Source: Chromobacterium sp. IIBBL 290-4 (lineage in GTDB: Bacteria > Pseudomonadota > Gammaproteobacteria > Burkholderiales > Chromobacteriaceae). From it: 64,000 bases of DNA. The notes under the pieces were generated by a model, which made no database searches, was not told where the DNA came from, and saw only the letters and a program-made list of their open reading frames with translations. The DNA lies in NCBI RefSeq assembly GCF_024207115.1, contig NZ_CP100128.1:806001-870000 (forward strand). Reading direction: 5' to 3'. Positions 15,616-59,569 of this stretch are shown piece after piece. Numbering within the stretch: position 1 is the first letter of the stretch; every line of letters starts with the position of its first letter. The position numbers were made by a program, and so were the translations under genes.

Positions 15616-16211
15616 CGCCCCGTTTCTGGTACTCATCAGCCAATGCCCCCCCTCTCCCTCTCCCCCGCCCCCTCTCCCGCAAGGGGAGAGGGGAGGCACG
15701 GAGAGACTTGGCTGCAAGCCACAGAGTTCAAACATTCCCGGATAGGCAGGACCGAATCCACTCATCAAACCCTTCTCCCTCAAGGAGAGAGGATGAGGCA
15801 CGGGGAGACTTGGCTGCAAGCCGCAGAGTTCAAACATTCCCGGATAGGCAAGACCAAATCCACTCCTCAAGCCCATTCCCGCAAGGAGAGAGGGTGAGGC
15901 ACGAGGAGACTTGGCTGCAAGCCGCAGAGTTCCAACATTTCCGGATAGGCAAGACCGAATCCACCCTTCAAGCCCACCTCTCGCAAGGGGAGAGGGGAGG
16001 CACGGAGGGACTTGGCTGCAAGCCACAGAGTTCAAACATTCCTGGGTAGACAAGACCGAATCCACTCCTCAAGCTCATTCCCGACCAGGGGAAGGGAGTG
16101 GCGCGGACAAAGATGAGGCCATTCACTCCGACGATAGGGAACGGCACCGCCAAACAATCCTGACTGCCGTCTGTAGAACTCAAACCTTCCCGTCAGCCAA
16201 AACAAGATCGC
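15616..16211. repeat. Tandem array of 101-102 bp repeats with GC palindromes
   Basis: Four clear copies of a 101-102 bp unit, recognisable by GACTTGGCTGCAAGCC at 15705, 15807, 15908 and 16009, plus a decayed fifth near 16162. Each unit holds a conserved part ending in CCGGATAGGCAAGACCGAAT and a hairpin of the type CCCTCTCCCGCAAGGGGAG. No gene is credible here; open frames are by-products of the repeat. The same palindrome recurs at 16221-16246 and at 58229-58253, so the unit is built on a dispersed REP-like element. It lies between two convergent genes. Confidence 0.85.
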
Positions 16212-18098
16212 CTAGGCAAGCCCCTCTCCCCTCGCGGGAGAGAGGTTGGGGAGAGGGGGCGGCTCAAGCCATCCTCTCGCCATCGCCGCCTCCCACGCCT
16301 CGCCATGCCGCTGGCGGATCAACCGCATCGAGGGATACCACGACGTCGCCTCTCCGTCCCGTCCCCAGCGCCAATCAACATGCTCAGACGCCAACAACAG
16401 ACGACACGGCAAGCCTAAGGCCCCTGCTAAATGCGCCATCGCCGTATCCACCGTCACTATCCCGTCCAGCTCAGACAACAAGGCAGCGCTATCGGCGAAA
16501 TCGCCCAATTTGGAGCCCAGATCCAATACGCCGTGTCGCGCCAGCCATGCAATCTCCTCCGGCGTCGGCTCCGGCTGCAGAGACAGCCAAAGCGTGGACG
16601 CATCCGCTAGCAAAGGCTCCAGCAAGGCCGGGCTTGGCAGCGAGCGGCAATGATCGAAGGGATGCTCGAAACGGCCGCGCCAGACCAGGCCTATCGTCCT
16701 CCGTCCAAGTGCCAACGCCAGCCTTTCGCGCCAACCTTCGCGCAATAAAGGATCGGCCCTCAGATCAGGCGGAAAGGCCCATGGCTCGGGCGCCAGCAGC
16801 AGGGGCAGGCTCATCGAGAACACATGGCTATCGTGAGCGGGGAATGCCGCTGGATAGGCATCCCCCATAGCCTGCCACGACACTTGCGGCCATTGGCTGG
16901 AGAACAAACGCAGCAACGGTTTCCGGCACAACGCGGCTACCCTCCCCTCGGCCCTCTCCAACAGGGCGGGAAGATAGCGGCTGAACTGGATGGCGTCGCC
17001 ATAGCCTTGCTCGAATATCAGCAACAGCTGCCGCCCATTCAACGCTTCTCCCTGCCAGCGGGGCGAATCCGGTTTAGGGTAGATGGCAGCCGCCAAGCGC
17101 GCCTCATGCAAGGCCCAGCCTTCCCGCCACTGGCCGCGCGATAGCTGCAAATAGCCGAGATTCTGCCGCAGCCGCAGGTGATCCGGCGCCGCCTGCAGGC
17201 CTTGCCCCCAGGCCTGCTCCGCCTCATCGCTCCTGCCTTGCTGCTCCAAGGCCACGCCCAGCGCGCACAGCCAATCCGCATCGCCAGGCTTCGCCGCAGC
17301 GGCTTGGCGCAGCACCGCCTCCGCCTCTGGGGCCCGGCCGGTCGCGGTCAGCAAAGCCGCCAGATTGGCCGCCACCGCCGCGGGCGACTGTTGGAAAGCT
17401 TGCCGCAGCAAGCGCTCCGCCTCTTCCCAACGGCGCAGTCCGGTCAACAACAAGCCTAGATTGTTCAAAGCGGCGAGGTGGCCGGAATCGAGAGCCAGCG
17501 CCCGGCGCAAACAAAGTTCCGCCTGCTCCGCTTGTCCCAATTCCGCCGACAGCTGCCCCAATAATTGCAGGGCCTCGGCATCGTCCGGCTGCCGCGCCAA
17601 GGACTGGCGGAAGCTCTCCGCCGCTTCGTCCAAACGGCCCAGTCGCCGCTGCAGTCGGCCTAAGTTGAAATGAGGATTCGCCGCCTCAGGCTGGGCATCC
17701 ATCTGCCTGCGGTAGCAGCCCTCCGCCTCCTCCAGGCGGCCATCGTTCTGCAAAAGATTGCCCAGATTGCCCAGGCTGGCGGCATGGGACGCATCGCGCG
17801 CCAATTCCGCCCGATAGCAAGCTTCGGCCAGAGCCGGCTCGTTTTGCTCTTCCCGCAAACAGCCCAGATTGAACTGCGCGTCCGGCGTGGCCGCATCCAG
17901 CGCCAAGGCTTGACCCCAGCATTGCTCGGCCAGTCCGCTCTGCCCCAGCCTGGCGGCGCAGACGCCCAGCAGATTCCACACCGGCGCATTGTCGGGCTCC
18001 GCCAGCAACACCCGCTGCGCCCATTGCAGGGCCTCGCCGATTTTGCCTTCGCCCAGCAAACGGCCTGCCGTCAAAGCATCGGTGGATAAGGCATGCAT
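16212..18098 (-). CDS. TPR-repeat protein with glycosyltransferase-like C-terminal region
   Basis: 628 residues. Residues ~1-330 are about nine tetratricopeptide repeats (for example WNLLGVCAARLGQSGLAEQCW, LGNLGNLLQNDGRLEEAEGCY, LNNLGLLLTGLRRWEEAERLL). The C-terminal ~270 residues (RQLLLIFEQGYGDAIQFSRYLPALL, ... GIVTVDTAMAHLAGALGLPCRLLLA ... WRWGRDGEATSWYPSMRLIRQ) match the glycosyltransferase-like half of many TPR/GT41-GT9-type bacterial proteins. A role in protein or surface glycosylation is plausible but unproven. The last 12 or so residues (PNLSPARGEGLA) are translated from the dispersed GC palindrome, so the gene appears to have been extended or truncated by it. Confidence 0.8.
   Translation of the reverse strand: MHALSTDALTAGRLLGEGKIGEALQWAQRVLLAEPDNAPVWNLLGVCAARLGQSGLAEQCWGQALALDAATPDAQFNLGCLREEQNEPALAEACYRAELARDASHAASLGNLGNLLQNDGRLEEAEGCYRRQMDAQPEAANPHFNLGRLQRRLGRLDEAAESFRQSLARQPDDAEALQLLGQLSAELGQAEQAELCLRRALALDSGHLAALNNLGLLLTGLRRWEEAERLLRQAFQQSPAAVAANLAALLTATGRAPEAEAVLRQAAAAKPGDADWLCALGVALEQQGRSDEAEQAWGQGLQAAPDHLRLRQNLGYLQLSRGQWREGWALHEARLAAAIYPKPDSPRWQGEALNGRQLLLIFEQGYGDAIQFSRYLPALLERAEGRVAALCRKPLLRLFSSQWPQVSWQAMGDAYPAAFPAHDSHVFSMSLPLLLAPEPWAFPPDLRADPLLREGWRERLALALGRRTIGLVWRGRFEHPFDHCRSLPSPALLEPLLADASTLWLSLQPEPTPEEIAWLARHGVLDLGSKLGDFADSAALLSELDGIVTVDTAMAHLAGALGLPCRLLLASEHVDWRWGRDGEATSWYPSMRLIRQRHGEAWEAAMARGWLEPPPLPNLSPARGEGLA
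16221..16246. repeat. REP-like palindrome inside the 3' end of the TPR gene
   Basis: CCCCTCTCCC and GGGAGAGAGG flank a CTCGC loop, the same hairpin family as the adjacent tandem array and as 58229-58253. Read on the minus strand it encodes the final residues and precedes the stop of the TPR gene. Confidence 0.8.
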
Positions 18099-53102: not shown

Positions 53103-54335
53103 CTATTCAAGAAACAGAATCTCCTGCTCCAACTTGTGCCCGGTTCTCTCCATCGCCTCAAGCAAGTTACGCAATTCATCAGGCAACGACTGTTTGAGCA
53201 AGCTCTGAATATGGCGTCTATCGAGGGCCTCCAGTGGCCAGTTACACTCCATCAGCTTGTCGTCATCGGCCTGCATACGCCATGGCTGCCATGAACGGCC
53301 TTGCTTCTCGACTAACAGCCCGACCTGCAAGGCAATAGCGACACCAGCCGGGTCCAAATCGCATGCGACATAGACTGGCGCATCGCACAAGCTGACTAAA
53401 TGGGAAAACGCATTGCGCCAGCGGCTGTGCGGCTGCCCTGGCACCCAGACTACAACGGCATCAGACACACCGGAGGCAACCTGCTGGGTCAATGTTTGGA
53501 ACACGCTGAAATTTTCTACAACCCGTACTTCTCGGACGAGACCCGCTACTCGCTTGATATCCAACACAGTCTCCGCAGGCAAAGCATTGCCTTGCCGCAG
53601 CAGGCTGGAACGGAGCAGCAAGCCTACTTCGTCATAGCAATCCAGATTGGCCGCCAGGAAAAAGTAAGGCGTATGCGGGGAGATGCCGCAGGCGTCCAGA
53701 TTCAAGCCAGATTCGGCCAACCATTCTTTATCGGCTTTTGCCAATGCCTTCGTATGCTGGAAAACCACTTGCGAGAACTGGCGCTCGGTTCCGAAGCGCT
53801 CCTCGCCAAGCCAATCATCCAGCCCCTGCAGCAAACGCAACCGTCGTCGCGACGTATCTACTTGCATCGATGCCTTGCGACAGAGGGCTGCGATATCCTT
53901 CAACCAAGGATGGCGGGGCTGCCACTGCGACCACTGTTCTTGCAAAGCCTCTTTCTCGGGCTGATTGGACCAACCCAATGCGCGCCGTAACCCCTCCTTA
54001 TCCCGCCAAACCACTTTGTAAGGAAGGTAGTGGTTCTGAGCAGCGCCCTTTCCGGCATAGCGAATCAACTCGCACCACCCTGCCTGCAGCAGGCGGCATA
54101 ACAGGCTCTCGCAATGCAGCCACGCCTTCTCTGCCTTCTCTTGGCTGTTCTCGATCATCCATGCCCATTTGGAAGACGTGCCGGCCGGCTTGAGCCAAGC
54201 TCGTAAAGTCTGCCACTGCAGTTCCTCCAACCCCAATAATGGCATTTCGCCCGGAAGCAGGCGCGGCACCAACTGGTCCCGCCCCTTGCTTTCCTCGCGC
54301 ACAAAAGCGCCCATGTCGAGATCAGATAACAGCAT
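53103..54335 (-). CDS. mksG: MksG/JetD Toprim nuclease of a Wadjet-type system
   Basis: 410 residues. The C-terminal Toprim-like part has E274 in VVENFSVFQ and D326-x-D328 in VYVACDLDPAGVAIAL, the metal site of JetD/MksG (DUF2220). The N-terminal part (WQTLRAWLKPAG, IRYAGKGAAQNHYLPYKVVW) is a winged-helix type region. It cuts closed circular plasmid DNA after loop extrusion by the MksBEF complex. The ATG overlaps the mksB stop (TAATG). Its DNA is visibly less G+C-rich than mksB/E/F, which suggests separate origin or different selection. Confidence 0.88.
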   Translation of the reverse strand: MLLSDLDMGAFVREESKGRDQLVPRLLPGEMPLLGLEELQWQTLRAWLKPAGTSSKWAWMIENSQEKAEKAWLHCESLLCRLLQAGWCELIRYAGKGAAQNHYLPYKVVWRDKEGLRRALGWSNQPEKEALQEQWSQWQPRHPWLKDIAALCRKASMQVDTSRRRLRLLQGLDDWLGEERFGTERQFSQVVFQHTKALAKADKEWLAESGLNLDACGISPHTPYFFLAANLDCYDEVGLLLRSSLLRQGNALPAETVLDIKRVAGLVREVRVVENFSVFQTLTQQVASGVSDAVVVWVPGQPHSRWRNAFSHLVSLCDAPVYVACDLDPAGVAIALQVGLLVEKQGRSWQPWRMQADDDKLMECNWPLEALDRRHIQSLLKQSLPDELRNLLEAMERTGHKLEQEILFLE

Positions 54336-57136
54336 TAGAGCCCTTCCACCCGCCGCCGCGTCTGCAGGATGGGCGGCGCCCAGGTTTCGCCGGGACGCTT
54401 CTTGCGCGTGGCCAGCGTCAGTTCGGACGGGGCGAAGATGTTGATGTTGTGGGTGTTCGGCGTGGTGATCAAATACTGCGCCTCGGTGGCCTTGAGGAAG
54501 CCGGCGACGCGGTCGATGTTGAAGATGTCGAGGTGGGCGAACGGTTCGTCGATGAAGACGAAGCCGGACGGATTGGACTCGTCCATCATCAAGCCGATCA
54601 GCAGGATCAGCGACTTCATCACCTGCTGGCCGCCGGAGGCCTCGCCGTCGTTCATGCCCATCATGCCCTTCTGGTCGAAGTTGAATTTCAACACCAGCCC
54701 GGCCTGGGCCAACACCGCGTCGTCGTTCTCCAGCTTGGGCAGCTCCACTTCCACCTGGATGCCGGCCAGCTCGCCCAGCCGCTTCACATTCTGGCCGTAG
54801 GCGCGCACGGTGGCGCGCAGCTTGCCGATATAGGCGGCGCGCGCTTCGTCGGTCAGCTCGCGCGAGCGGTCCACCTCGCCCTGGCGGCGCTGCCGTTCCT
54901 TATCCAGCGACGTCAGGTCTTCCACCAGCTTGTCCTTCAGCGCCAGCACCGAATCGTCCTGCTCCCAGTCGCCGCTTTGCAGCTTCTCTTCCAGATAATT
55001 CAGCTGGTGCTTGGCGTCGGCGGCGGTATCGAACTCGTCCTCCAGCTGCGCCACATGCTCCGGCGCCAGCGCCGCGTCCGGCAAACGCTCCGCCCACTCC
55101 CGCAGCTCGGCAATCAGCCGCCGCAATTGGCGGCGCGCCTGCTCCACGTCCTGCAGCTTCTGATTGTATTTGCCCAGGCTTTCCATCTCGCGCTGGCAGA
55201 CGCGGTCGTGCGCCAGGCGCGCGTCGCCATAACGCTGGTCGGCGGCATCCTTCTCGCCGCTGGCCTCGGCCAGGGCCGCGCCCTGGCGGGCGATCTCGGC
55301 TTCCAGTTCCGCCTTGCGCGATTCCAGCGCGGCGAATTCGTCGGCGCGGCTGTCCAGCTGGCGGATCGCGTCCATGCCGCCCAGATACTCGGCCAAGCCG
55401 GCCGCCTCGCGGGTGGCGGCCACCAGCCGCTCCTCATCGGCCAGGATGCGCACATTAAGTTGCTTCAGCTCATCGCGCACCGCCAGCAGGCGCGATTGCC
55501 GCGCCGCTTCGCCGAAGGCGTATTCATGCATGGGCACGCCGATGTGGCGCGCGCCGCGGCGCTCGCGGAAATAGCCGTCGCGGGTGATCCAGTCGCCGTC
55601 GGCATTCGCGCCCTCGCTCGCGTTCTCCACGCGAGTCACACTGTTCATCTGCCGGTACAGCCACTCCGGCGCGTCGGCGGAGAAGCGCACCACTTCCAGC
55701 AGGCTGCCCTTTTCGGCGCGCGGCGGCTTGCTGCGCTCCGGCACCACGAAATGGCGGTAGCGCAGCTTCTCGCCTATCTTCCAGGCCTCGCGGCGGTCCG
55801 ACTCCTTGTCCAGCAACACCACGTGGCGATAGCCGCGCAGCAGCGCTTCCACTGCGGCCTGCCAATTGGAATCCATCACCTCGACGATGTCGGACAGCAT
55901 GGCATGGCCTATGCCGGCCTCGTCCAGCGCCGCCTTGAACTGGCGCACGTCTTCCGGCGAACGGCCGCGGCCGATCTCCAGCGCCTCCAGATGCTGCTGG
56001 CTGTCCTGGCGCTGCTTTTTCAGCTCGCGCAGGCCGTCTTTCAATTGATCCGCTTCGGCGCGCAAGGCCGCCAGCTTGTCGGCCAGTTGCGCGGCATCGG
56101 CGCCGTATTCCTTGCCGGCCAGAGCCTGCAAGCGGTCGCGCTCCTTCAATTGGCCGGCCACGCCGGCATGCTCGCCCTTGGCCTTCATAAAGGCTTCCTG
56201 CACCGCCTGGCGCACCGTTTCCGCCGCGCCGCGCGCCTCGGCAGCGCTCACTTCCGCCGCCTTCAGCTTGGCCACCAGATCCAGCGTGTCGGCATGTTCG
56301 GCGCGCGCCTGGTTCAGCACATGGTAGCCGGCGCGGTAGTCGTTCCACTGCTTGCCGAAGGAGGCCTTGCCGTCCAGATAAGCCAGCACCGGCAGCGCCT
56401 CTTCGCGCAGCCGCTTGATGCCGGTTTGCAGCTGCTTCCATTCCAGGTAGCGGTTGGCGCGGTTCTTCATCGCTTCCACCCGCACCTGCAGCGCCTCTTC
56501 CTGGCGGCTCAGCGCCTCCAGCTCCAGCTCGGTGGCGCGCTGCTCGTCGCGCGCGCGCTGGTAGTTGTCCAGCACATCCTTGTCGCCGAAGACCTGGAAC
56601 ACCAGGTCCAAGAGCTGGCGAGGGCTGTATTCGGTCAGCTTGTCGGTGTCGCCCTGCTCCAGCGCCAGCACCTCGCCCACCGCGGCGGTCAGGCCGGCGG
56701 CCTCCAGGCGGCGGCGGTATTCCTGCACGCCCAGCCATTGCGCCTGGCCTTCGGCATGCTCCAGCGCGATATCGCCATCCAGGATGGCGTAGTGGCGCAC
56801 CCAGTCGCCGCCCTGCTTCTTGATGCGGCACAACAGGGTGACGGACTCGGAGACGATGGGGAAGAACGGCGTCGGATACAGGCCGCCGCCGACGCGGCGC
56901 GGGTTGTCCACCACGCCGCGCAGATAGGCGAAGGCCTCCTTGTTGTTGCGCACATAGCGCTTGTAGTCGCGCTTGCCGGAGCATTTGATCGCCAGCAAGG
57001 TGCGCAGCGCGTCCAGCAAGGTGGTCTTGCCGGAGCCATTGGGGCCGATGATGGTGACGATCTGCGCGTCCAGCGGCACGGTCAGCCGCTGCCAGAAGTC
57101 CCAGTGCACCATTTCCACCGATTTCATCTGGAACAT
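54335..57136 (-). CDS. mksB: MksB SMC-type ATPase
   Basis: 933 residues, about the size of Pseudomonas MksB. Walker A GPNGSGKTT at residues 31-39, signature SGGQQ at 834-838 and Walker B FIDEPFAHLD (861-870), with long coiled coils on each side of a central hinge-like region near residues 440-590. Like JetC, it is the motor that loops DNA with MksE and MksF. The start overlaps the mksE stop as TGATG. Confidence 0.92.
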   Translation of the reverse strand: MFQMKSVEMVHWDFWQRLTVPLDAQIVTIIGPNGSGKTTLLDALRTLLAIKCSGKRDYKRYVRNNKEAFAYLRGVVDNPRRVGGGLYPTPFFPIVSESVTLLCRIKKQGGDWVRHYAILDGDIALEHAEGQAQWLGVQEYRRRLEAAGLTAAVGEVLALEQGDTDKLTEYSPRQLLDLVFQVFGDKDVLDNYQRARDEQRATELELEALSRQEEALQVRVEAMKNRANRYLEWKQLQTGIKRLREEALPVLAYLDGKASFGKQWNDYRAGYHVLNQARAEHADTLDLVAKLKAAEVSAAEARGAAETVRQAVQEAFMKAKGEHAGVAGQLKERDRLQALAGKEYGADAAQLADKLAALRAEADQLKDGLRELKKQRQDSQQHLEALEIGRGRSPEDVRQFKAALDEAGIGHAMLSDIVEVMDSNWQAAVEALLRGYRHVVLLDKESDRREAWKIGEKLRYRHFVVPERSKPPRAEKGSLLEVVRFSADAPEWLYRQMNSVTRVENASEGANADGDWITRDGYFRERRGARHIGVPMHEYAFGEAARQSRLLAVRDELKQLNVRILADEERLVAATREAAGLAEYLGGMDAIRQLDSRADEFAALESRKAELEAEIARQGAALAEASGEKDAADQRYGDARLAHDRVCQREMESLGKYNQKLQDVEQARRQLRRLIAELREWAERLPDAALAPEHVAQLEDEFDTAADAKHQLNYLEEKLQSGDWEQDDSVLALKDKLVEDLTSLDKERQRRQGEVDRSRELTDEARAAYIGKLRATVRAYGQNVKRLGELAGIQVEVELPKLENDDAVLAQAGLVLKFNFDQKGMMGMNDGEASGGQQVMKSLILLIGLMMDESNPSGFVFIDEPFAHLDIFNIDRVAGFLKATEAQYLITTPNTHNINIFAPSELTLATRKKRPGETWAPPILQTRRRVEGL

Positions 57137-57894
57137 CAGCGCACCTCCCCATCCGCCGCGTCTTCCGCCGGCAGCTCAAACAGCGGACCGGCCGACTCAA
57201 TGTCGTCCGCCGCATTTTCTTCTTCGATATCTTCCGGCGCGCGCTTGTCGGCCAGCGCCTCGCGGCCTTCGCGCCGCAGCAGCACATCGGCCAGTGCGCC
57301 TTCGATGATGCGCGGCGCCAGTTGGGCGTAATCTATCATCAGGTCCAGCATCGGCCCCTCGTCCAGCCAGCGGTTGCGGCGGACGATGAAGCCCAGGTTG
57401 ACCAGCCGGCCCAGGTTGGCGTTGAAGCGGGTGCGGCCGCCCAGGGCCTTGCCGAAATCGGCGTACAGCGCGTCCTCGGAAATGCCGGTGGACACCGCCT
57501 CGCCGGTTTCCAGCGGCTTTTGCGCGCCGAACATATCGCTCTGGTTCTCCTTGCCGGCCTCGACGCGGGCGATCTGCCGCTCGCGCTTGGGCAGGATGAT
57601 CAGCGCCCACAAGATCACCAGCAGCGCCACGCCGTCGCGCGGCAGGCCCAGGTTGTTGTTGAGCCAGGCGTCGCCCGAGCCGAACACCGGCTCGGTCATT
57701 TCCGGCAGCAGCGCCGCGGCGATGTGCTCGGCATAGGGGTTCTCCACCAGCCGCAGGCCGACCGCGGCCAGGCTCTTGTCCAACTCGGCGCGGAAGATGT
57801 CGTCCAGCAGCGCCTTGCGCGCCAGCGCGTCGCCACGGGGCACCACGCGGTGCGCCAGCAGGCGGGCGGTGAGGGTTTTGATTTCGTGTTCCAT
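57136..57894 (-). CDS. mksE: MksE/JetB winged-helix subunit
   Basis: 252 residues, like Pseudomonas MksE (about 240). N-terminal and C-terminal winged-helix regions (for example EALLPEMTEPVFGSGDAWLNNNLG-like segment, then LGRLVNLGFIVRRNRWLDEGP) and an acidic tail (residues ~225-250). It binds MksF and the SMC heads as a Kite-type subunit. One base separates it from the 72-residue gene upstream. Confidence 0.88.
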   Translation of the reverse strand: MEHEIKTLTARLLAHRVVPRGDALARKALLDDIFRAELDKSLAAVGLRLVENPYAEHIAAALLPEMTEPVFGSGDAWLNNNLGLPRDGVALLVILWALIILPKRERQIARVEAGKENQSDMFGAQKPLETGEAVSTGISEDALYADFGKALGGRTRFNANLGRLVNLGFIVRRNRWLDEGPMLDLMIDYAQLAPRIIEGALADVLLRREGREALADKRAPEDIEEENAADDIESAGPLFELPAEDAADGEVR

Positions 57895-57895
57895 A

Positions 57896-58114
57896 TTATT
57901 TCTTGGCTTGCGCCACGCTCTGGATCAGCATCAGCGCGGCGGAGGCCGCCAGCGCGGCATCGCGCGGGTCGGCCAGATCCTGGTTGAAGCGCGGCAGCAA
58001 TTGCCGGTAATGCGCCAGCAAGGCTTGCACTTCGGTATTCACATCGCCGCCGAGGCGGGTTTCCATCCTGGCTACCGTCTCGGCCAGTTCTTGCCGGGTA
58101 ATCGTCGGTTTCAT
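57896..58114 (-). CDS. Small helical protein of unknown function in the mks operon
   Basis: 72 residues (begins MKPTITRQELAETVARMETRLGG, ends LMLIQSVAQAKK), predicted mostly alpha-helical with no membrane segment. GGGAG precedes the ATG and the gene ends one base before mksE, so it is very probably translated with the operon. I do not recognise a family. MksFEBG operons I know of go straight from mksF to mksE, so it may be an accessory or regulatory subunit. It could instead be a Chromobacterium-lineage passenger. Confidence 0.6.
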   Translation of the reverse strand: MKPTITRQELAETVARMETRLGGDVNTEVQALLAHYRQLLPRFNQDLADPRDAALAASAALMLIQSVAQAKK

Positions 58115-58303
58115 TTCACACGCTCCCGCAGTGGGTGGTGAGGCAGGCATCCCCGCCAGGGGGAGGAGCTTTGGGCGGCTATCGATAGGCCACGCGCCGC
58201 AATACTTATGCGCATAAGCGTCGAGTCTCCCCTCTCCCCTCGCGGGAGAGGGGCCGGGGGTGAGGGGGTCGAATGCGAGCGTGGCAATCCCGCGCGCATC
58301 CAT
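58115..58303. other. Palindrome-rich spacer between mksF and the small gene
   Basis: About 190 bp. It contains the perfect palindrome CTTATGCGCATAAG (58205-58218) and a REP-like hairpin CCCCTCTCCC-CTCGC-GGGAGAGGGG (58229-58253), of the same type as at 15.66-16.25 kb. No T tract follows, so it does not clearly end transcription. It splits an otherwise gapless operon. Confidence 0.65.
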
Positions 58304-59569
58304 TCAGCGCTTTCCCATCGCCACCAACTTGGCGTCGGACAGCGTCGCCACCTCCGGGTGGTCCGGCACTATCACGCCATCGCCGCCCTGCAGGCTGAAC
58401 GGCAGCTTGGCCAGCGCGGCGACGATGCTCTGGTCGTTGCTGGTTTCCGGATCGCCGATCAAGGACAACAGGGACAGGCGATAAGCGGTTTCGTTGTAGC
58501 TGTCGGCCAGCACCGCCTGGCTGATATGGGCGTCGGCCGCGCCGCTCATGCCCAGCGTGAGCAGCGCGTCGTACATGTCCTCGGCCTCCAGCAGCCGCTC
58601 CATCTCCGGCGCGTCGGCCATAGGCGCGGCTTCGCTGCCCGGCAACACATGCTCGCCGGCCTTGGCGCGCTCGCGGGCCAATAATTCGAATTCGGCCACA
58701 TCGGCCAATTCCGGCGTGGACAGGAAGGCCGGCTCCAGGCAGATGGACAGCCCGTCCGCCAGCTTGCCGGCCAGCGTGGCCGAGCCCTGGCGGCGCAGCC
58801 AATCGGCGATGTCGGTGGAGGTGAGGCCGGAATTGCCCAGGTGCACGCGCTGCGCGGCCAGCTGCGCCAGACGGCGCTCAAAGGTGCCGGCCAGCGCCAG
58901 CATGCGGCTTTGCGCCAGCGCGATGGCCTGCGCCTGGTTCAGCACCAGCAGGCTCAAGCTTTCGTCCTGGGTCAGGCCTTTCACCACCTCGGTGGATTTC
59001 GCCACCCAGCGCCATACCGCTTCCAGCCTATGCTGGGCGGCGCGGATGCGGAATTCGGACTGCGACTCCAGCGCCTCTTCGAACTCCGCGTACAGCTCGT
59101 TCAGCCGCGCCAGCAAGTGCTTGAGCGCCTCGTCCGACACCTGCCCCACCGCCTGGCCGGCGGCGACCTGGCTGGTCAGATAACCCAGCTCCACGTCGTC
59201 GCCGACGAAATCTATCATCGTCGCCAAGGCCGCCAGCGCCACTCGCGCGCCCTCGGACAACTGGTAAACGCCGCCGTCGCTGTCGTAAACCAGCAAATCG
59301 CCTTCGCGCAAACGCCCCAGAATGGTGGCCAGTTTGGTATCGTTAAGATAAGAGAAGCGCTGGGCGATTTCCTGCGGCGTCCATTGCGGCGCTTCGGCGC
59401 GGCCGCCCAGCTCATGCAGCACCAGGAGGCGCATCAGCACTTCCTCGTCGCCGCCGCGGAACAGCGTGACGAAAACGGACAAATAGCCCCAGGCGCCTTG
59501 CAGCCGCGACACGGCCTGCAAAGAGCCGGGCTCAATGCCGGGCTGGAAGAAATCGGACAAGGAATCCAA
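58304..59569 (-). CDS. mksF: MksF/JetA kleisin subunit
   Basis: 421 residues, close to the ~430 of Pseudomonas MksF. N-terminal winged helix (WTPQEIAQRFSYLNDTKLATILGRL), central coiled-coil region and C-terminal wing-like part. The only good start is a TTG at 59569 with GGAG five bases upstream; the frame lacks an upstream ATG that fits. It bridges the MksB heads. It begins the operon and is divergent from the aspartoacylase gene. Confidence 0.85.
   Translation of the reverse strand: MDSLSDFFQPGIEPGSLQAVSRLQGAWGYLSVFVTLFRGGDEEVLMRLLVLHELGGRAEAPQWTPQEIAQRFSYLNDTKLATILGRLREGDLLVYDSDGGVYQLSEGARVALAALATMIDFVGDDVELGYLTSQVAAGQAVGQVSDEALKHLLARLNELYAEFEEALESQSEFRIRAAQHRLEAVWRWVAKSTEVVKGLTQDESLSLLVLNQAQAIALAQSRMLALAGTFERRLAQLAAQRVHLGNSGLTSTDIADWLRRQGSATLAGKLADGLSICLEPAFLSTPELADVAEFELLARERAKAGEHVLPGSEAAPMADAPEMERLLEAEDMYDALLTLGMSGAADAHISQAVLADSYNETAYRLSLLSLIGDPETSNDQSIVAALAKLPFSLQGGDGVIVPDHPEVATLSDAKLVAMGKR

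Follow-up and report, generated by a model that had tools for sequence, protein, structure and literature searches.

A Wadjet-type mksFEBG operon of Chromobacterium with an additional small gene and a distinct, probably acquired mksG

The stretch of DNA analysed here (the window; 64,000 nt, positions 806,001 to 870,000 of contig NZ_CP100128.1 of Chromobacterium sp. IIBBL 290-4) is part of a 5.12 Mb one-contig genome (G000) whose closest named relatives are Chromobacterium species. Its minus strand carries mksF, a 72-codon gene, mksE, mksB and mksG, all co-directional (Table 1), so that the F-E-B-G order of Wadjet and MksBEFG operons is present with the small gene interrupting it. A preliminary description of the region had proposed an Mks (Wadjet-type) operon with an extra small gene, and all five genes are confirmed, including an intact-looking Toprim nuclease. 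It had also described TGATG and TAATG couplings along the operon; these are found at the mksE/mksB (TGATG) and mksB/mksG (TAATG) junctions, where start and stop codons overlap, but mksF and the small gene are uncoupled and 189 nt apart. A promoter-like site (59628-59600) lies just upstream of mksF and a terminator-like 10-pair stem (53073-53048) directly behind mksG; both kinds of site occur at about the level of shuffled sequence (promoter-like 1 vs 0.7, terminator-like 7 vs 5.7).

Table 1. Features of the operon, with positions numbered from the first base of the window
Feature	Position	Strand	Description
mksF	58304..59569	-	421 aa, TTG start (uncertain); kleisin-like by operon position and conservation
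Gap between mksF and the small gene	58115..58303	-	contains a REP-like element (core 58229-58250); apparent secondary insertion, also in G008 and G017
Extra 72-aa gene	57896..58114	-	GGAG before ATG; TAATATG junction to mksE (1 base between stop and start)
mksE	57136..57894	-	KITE-like subunit, 252 aa
mksB	54335..57136	-	933-aa SMC-type ATPase with Walker A, signature and Walker B
mksG	53103..54335	-	410-aa Toprim nuclease; E274, D326 and D328 intact

The gap between mksF and the small gene contains a dispersed REP-like element, present in the genome as 15 exact copies and 38 at ≤3 mismatches (reversed-pattern control, 0). In G015 and G013 mksF runs straight into the small gene, and from this comparison the gap looks like a later insertion. 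Copies of the element (core CTCTCCCGCGAGGGGAGAGGGG) lie within the window at 15650-16250 and 58229-58250, and in G008 part of it is present three times in the corresponding gap.

MksF of the window matches only JukB (E 0.0015) and not JetA1, a PADLOC profile reached by two of the 17 MksF proteins scanned (best E 0.0023). MksE has no Pfam match and reaches JetB1 at E 0.022; eight of 18 MksE proteins scanned contain DUF4194 (best E 6.7e-4), that of the window not among them, and comparison of MksE and MksF with the PDB gave nothing relevant. MksB has the motifs GPNGSGKT at 31, SGGQQ at 834 and FVFIDEPFAHLD at 859, and matches JetC1 (E 2e-24) and, by sequence, JetC 8dk1 (E 2.8e-5). MksG matches DUF2399 and TOP6A-Spo11_Toprim over the Pfam cut-off and JetD1 at E 5.5e-19, and its intact E274, D326 and D328 lie in the motif region that aligns with topo VI-A. 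A profile search of the PDB with MksG finds topo VI-A (2zbk, E 2.8e-4) and, far less well, Spo11 (E 0.63) and 1d3y (E 0.96); a single-sequence search of the PDB found nothing relevant.

The small gene looks translated, since five genomes preserve an open frame of 69-75 aa. Its dN is lower than dS in ten of ten genome pairs, weakly so in the closest pair (0.016 vs 0.02), in a comparison of 56 codons that omits codons 1-16 of the window gene and excises an in-frame 18-nt duplication in G013 for alignment. This excess of dS and the existence of database relatives mark it as more than a random reading frame. The protein has ten database relatives, nine of them Chromobacterium proteins of 69-72 aa, and its last 26 residues are identical in eight of these nine, with a single difference in the ninth; a metagenome protein of 61-64% identity keeps them in part. 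In the G015 protein a Ser of the conserved C-terminal part is replaced by Gly, and the G013 protein has a 6-residue duplication. The early view that this protein falls outside known systems agrees with the searches, which gave only sub-cut-off hits in Pfam, none in PADLOC or NCBIfam, a best PHROGs match of E 0.024 and one weak match by sequence in the PDB (E 0.061). Its structure model consists of three helices (mean pLDDT 78), and a fold search with it gave no match at E up to 0.001 in the PDB or a viral library. A class-wide profile search (369 genomes) returned only the window and one match of E 7e-4 inside a longer frame, and a search of open-licence papers on Wadjet, MksE and a small protein found none.

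Of the 18 genomes of the genus that have mksE, five contain the small gene (G000, G008, G017, G015 and G013; the GTDB genus also has as a member G012, filed as Xenophilus sp.), and across the family Chromobacteriaceae it is found in five of 61 genomes, every holder belonging to this genus. The preliminary description held that absence from related mks operons would count against the gene, and this is partly what we see: 13 of the 18 same-genus operons lack it and five keep it. In a MksB tree of 39 rows (G035, with a partial mksB, omitted and 15 further mksE-bearing family genomes not included) the holders occupy three branches of one 11-genome clade (SH-aLRT 100), a pattern that fits either one gain with several losses or several gains.

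One earlier suggestion was that the small protein controls the MksG nuclease or serves in self-protection against it. The two genes do share an operon in the window, but only this one of the five holders has a full mksG, one (G017) has a broken remnant and three have none; conversely, G006 has an mksG whose product is 84% identical to that of the window and lacks the small gene, as do eight Aquitalea genomes with linked mksG. We consider a role centred on MksG very improbable. Judged by sequence and distribution, this gene of the violaceum clade does encode a protein and goes with the MksFEB core rather than with MksG, and its product may have a role with that core.

The 3' end of the small gene is unusual in its synonymous sites. 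Across five species its last 28 codons, a block picked after the alignment had been seen, contain no purely synonymous variable codon where about 11 are expected; three codons show amino-acid differences, and the Ile/Val one among them differs at two bases, a change scored pairwise as one synonymous step. The same count per 28 codons averages 11.2 in mksF, 10.9 in mksE and 10.6 in mksB, with a minimum of 2 in 1472 sliding windows, and the preceding 28 codons of the small gene have 13 (pairwise dS up to 1.03). RNA folding of the block has a z-score of -2.46 against dinucleotide shuffles, but only -0.95 to -1.50 against synonymous resampling (175 and 67 of 1000 as low), and RNA structure is not convincing as the cause. 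The silence could possibly stem from a DNA or RNA signal, or from short-tract recombination. That the block is unconstrained and was recently spread across species by such recombination is a tenable reading, though we would not put it at even chances: it accounts for a divergent 5' part beside an almost invariant 3' part, yet dS is ordinary (0.17-0.33) in the first 30 mksE codons just beyond the block, and in the MksB tree the holders are spread over three separate branches. No second copy that could act as a gene-conversion source was found in the genus beyond the five loci among the matches listed; the best other listed match is 86% over 42 nt (G016, E 4.3e-7), with about 40 candidates scored per genome.

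The junction that holds the small gene is variable. Among the 18 same-genus operons mksF and mksE overlap in five and are separated by the small gene in five, by a 160-aa ORF in one, by inverted-repeat-like spacers (judged by eye) in four and by 49-52-nt spacers in three. The 160-aa ORF, in G006 (L039:8774-9256, minus strand), has 52% GC, is weakly DUF6998-like and matches phrog_24787 (E 9.5e-41), of unknown function. In a set of 80 named loci, 74 with mksF found, mksF and mksE are separated in ten by a conserved 216-aa gene (L145, L146, L148, L151, L156, L163, L164, L165, L166 and L169; from Silvimonas, Chitinolyticbacter, Andreprevotia, Chitinilyticum, Iodobacter and a MAG filed as Janthinobacterium), and in one by a gene that by eye is HAD-like; one 216-aa protein run against Pfam gave no match. 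Unrelated-looking genes, by eye encoding 368-aa methyltransferase-like and 243-244-aa racemase-like proteins, are present at the mksE/mksB junction of L175, L178, L183 and of L176 and L184. An mksG profile match is found in at least 17 of the 80 loci, many of which end early; in Methyloversatilis thermotolerans an mksG-like frame (L180:19083-20399) lies about 5.4 kb downstream of mksB.

Since its junctions admit extra genes, the operon offers weaker grounds for inference from position, and position leaves teamwork of the small protein with the complex unproven. The gene could be a passenger, or a translational spacer that keeps ribosomes running into mksE, at a junction that tolerates insertions, as the five kinds of content in the genus, the insertions elsewhere and the G013 and G015 changes would allow. 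We regard this as rather unlikely, given the near-identity of the last 26 residues among the Chromobacterium relatives, their partial retention in the metagenome protein, and the synonymous silence of the 3' part.

The mksG of the window differs from its neighbours in composition (GC 56.4% and GC3 65.9%, against 66.6% and 88.5% in mksB), and native copies of mksG have 64-74% GC. Its product has 39-45% identity (about 41%) to native MksG from Aquitalea, Pseudogulbenkiania and a Chromobacterium group (clade B), proteins that share 58-66% with one another, and 35% identity to that of Crenobacter; these pairwise values use longest-frame starts and so include N-terminal extensions of some relatives. 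Between G000 and G006 dS is 0.74 in mksG and 0.25 in mksB. A C. amazonense protein is 92% identical to MksG of the window, and G003, taken to be C. amazonense DSM 26508, shows no mksG. The end of mksB also varies: MksB terminates in RRRVEGL in G000, G006 and G017, where mksB overlaps mksG or its remnant, whereas six of ten mksG-less genomes of the genus end in RRRVDGGEQA and the other four differently again. No recombination breakpoint in mksB was seen in sliding identities.

From the low GC, the approximately 41% identity to the native lineage, the intact residues and the altered mksB end, the mksG of the window was probably acquired onto a long-standing MksBEF core. No donor was found among the scored candidates, the closest outside the family being 30-36% identical, and this leaves room for a native, vertically inherited and fast-evolving copy that relatives have simply lost. 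Such a copy would sit, as observed, in the same place behind mksB as in Aquitalea, and the G017 remnant shows that loss occurs, but we consider it improbable in view of the low identity to a lineage whose own similarity spans three genera, the GC difference, the deep mksG divergence between two close genomes and the changed mksB end. G000, G008, G017 and G006 group together in the MksB tree (SH-aLRT 99), and a single gain, followed by loss in G008 and by decay in G017, is possible; so are several gains.

Across the family the nuclease gene is far less regular than mksE, which is present in 51 of 61 genomes. Sequence and profile searches agree on 22 of the 61 genomes as having an mksG match. 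For the 51 mksE-bearing genomes mksG is linked and full-length in 14 (G000, G006, eight Aquitalea, two Pseudogulbenkiania and two Crenobacter), unlinked in five (clade B: G001, G002, G005, G014 and G018), a remnant in one (G017) and not found in 31, a number in which draft genomes can hide genes and in which G035 (84% complete) is unsure, its contig ending inside mksB. In clade B mksF, mksE and mksB are all absent within 6-7 kb of mksG. Two further genomes, G023 (L104) and G027 (L105), have mksG-like genes and no mksE match; the G023 product keeps the Glu and neither Asp, and in G027 the Glu is gone and the frame contains internal stops. Class-wide searches (369 genomes each) found mksE in two genomes and an mksG-profile match in five, and so added little on linkage; a search of open-licence papers on Chromobacterium and Wadjet found none.

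The active-site residues vary among these copies. The Glu and both Asp are intact in G000, G006, database proteins P0133 and P0134 and all eight Aquitalea copies; both Pseudogulbenkiania copies have Glu to Gln, both Crenobacter copies Glu to Gln and the second Asp to Ser, and four of five clade-B copies the second Asp to Ala, that of G002 being intact. The dN/dS values of mksG (clade B 0.05-0.24, Crenobacter 0.22, Pseudogulbenkiania 0.29, Aquitalea 0.05-0.11) indicate that selection still acts on the altered copies, perhaps with less stringency. At the sequence level, the native mksG lineage is missing, elsewhere in the genome or changed at its active site in many branches. The mksFEB core is conserved, and the sequence comparisons show purifying selection on mksB with or without mksG, as among G008, G013 and G015, which have no mksG (mutual dS 0.24-0.35, dN 0.023-0.031).

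The explanation that we favour, with more confidence than doubt, is a long-kept and mostly nuclease-less MksBEF core that in the window is joined by a distinct, probably acquired MksG, the small gene being tied to the core. By analogy with function data from other organisms, MksBEF would extrude loops of DNA, and together with MksG it would cut small circular DNA in the manner of Wadjet. The small protein, presumably made together with MksE by translational coupling, would most likely be a helical partner of the MksFEB core, with its conserved C-terminal helix as the putative contact. Against this explanation stand the weak profile support for MksF and MksE and, for the acquisition, the missing donor and the lack of a visible breakpoint in mksB. 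A related account, which we hold possible but short of probable, takes MksBEF as a housekeeping condensin with an exchangeable nuclease and the small protein as a clade-specific condensin partner, the 3' end of its gene doubling as a DNA or RNA control element; the nuclease module would then have been lost, moved, putatively inactivated yet kept under selection, or replaced by a foreign one via a new mksB-mksG junction.

On one conserved core the Chromobacteriaceae thus display a nuclease that is linked and intact, linked and altered, unlinked, broken, absent or apparently replaced. Some of these states occur among close species, so the switch between organising the chromosome and cutting plasmids can be tested in closely related strains. 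Since unlinked and active-site-altered copies of MksG remain under selection, their sequences suggest a second MksG role.

Among known systems, the operon most resembles Wadjet type I (MksBEFG, JetABCD) in its gene order, its SMC-type ATPase and its Toprim nuclease with E and DxD residues, and the predicted fold of MksG matches both the C. glutamicum nuclease (8b7f) and JetD (7til). Unlike Wadjet type I it has an extra 72-aa gene, its MksE and MksF score only marginally against the PADLOC Jet profiles, and most Chromobacteriaceae show no nuclease gene. Lamassu (LmuA-LmuC-LmuB), as described in PMC10586767, likewise has a small gene in the middle of an SMC-like defence operon, but its core is different. 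The MksBEF condensin of Pseudomonas aeruginosa, for which PMC7485682 reports a role in chromosome organisation, is comparable as an SMC-like complex beside the canonical Smc, and in Chromobacteriaceae the complex is often nuclease-less; the window differs in having mksG. PMC10586767, a 2023 review, proposes that the P. aeruginosa condensin arose from Wadjet via nuclease loss, and the Chromobacteriaceae are a good place to test such an origin of MksBEF.
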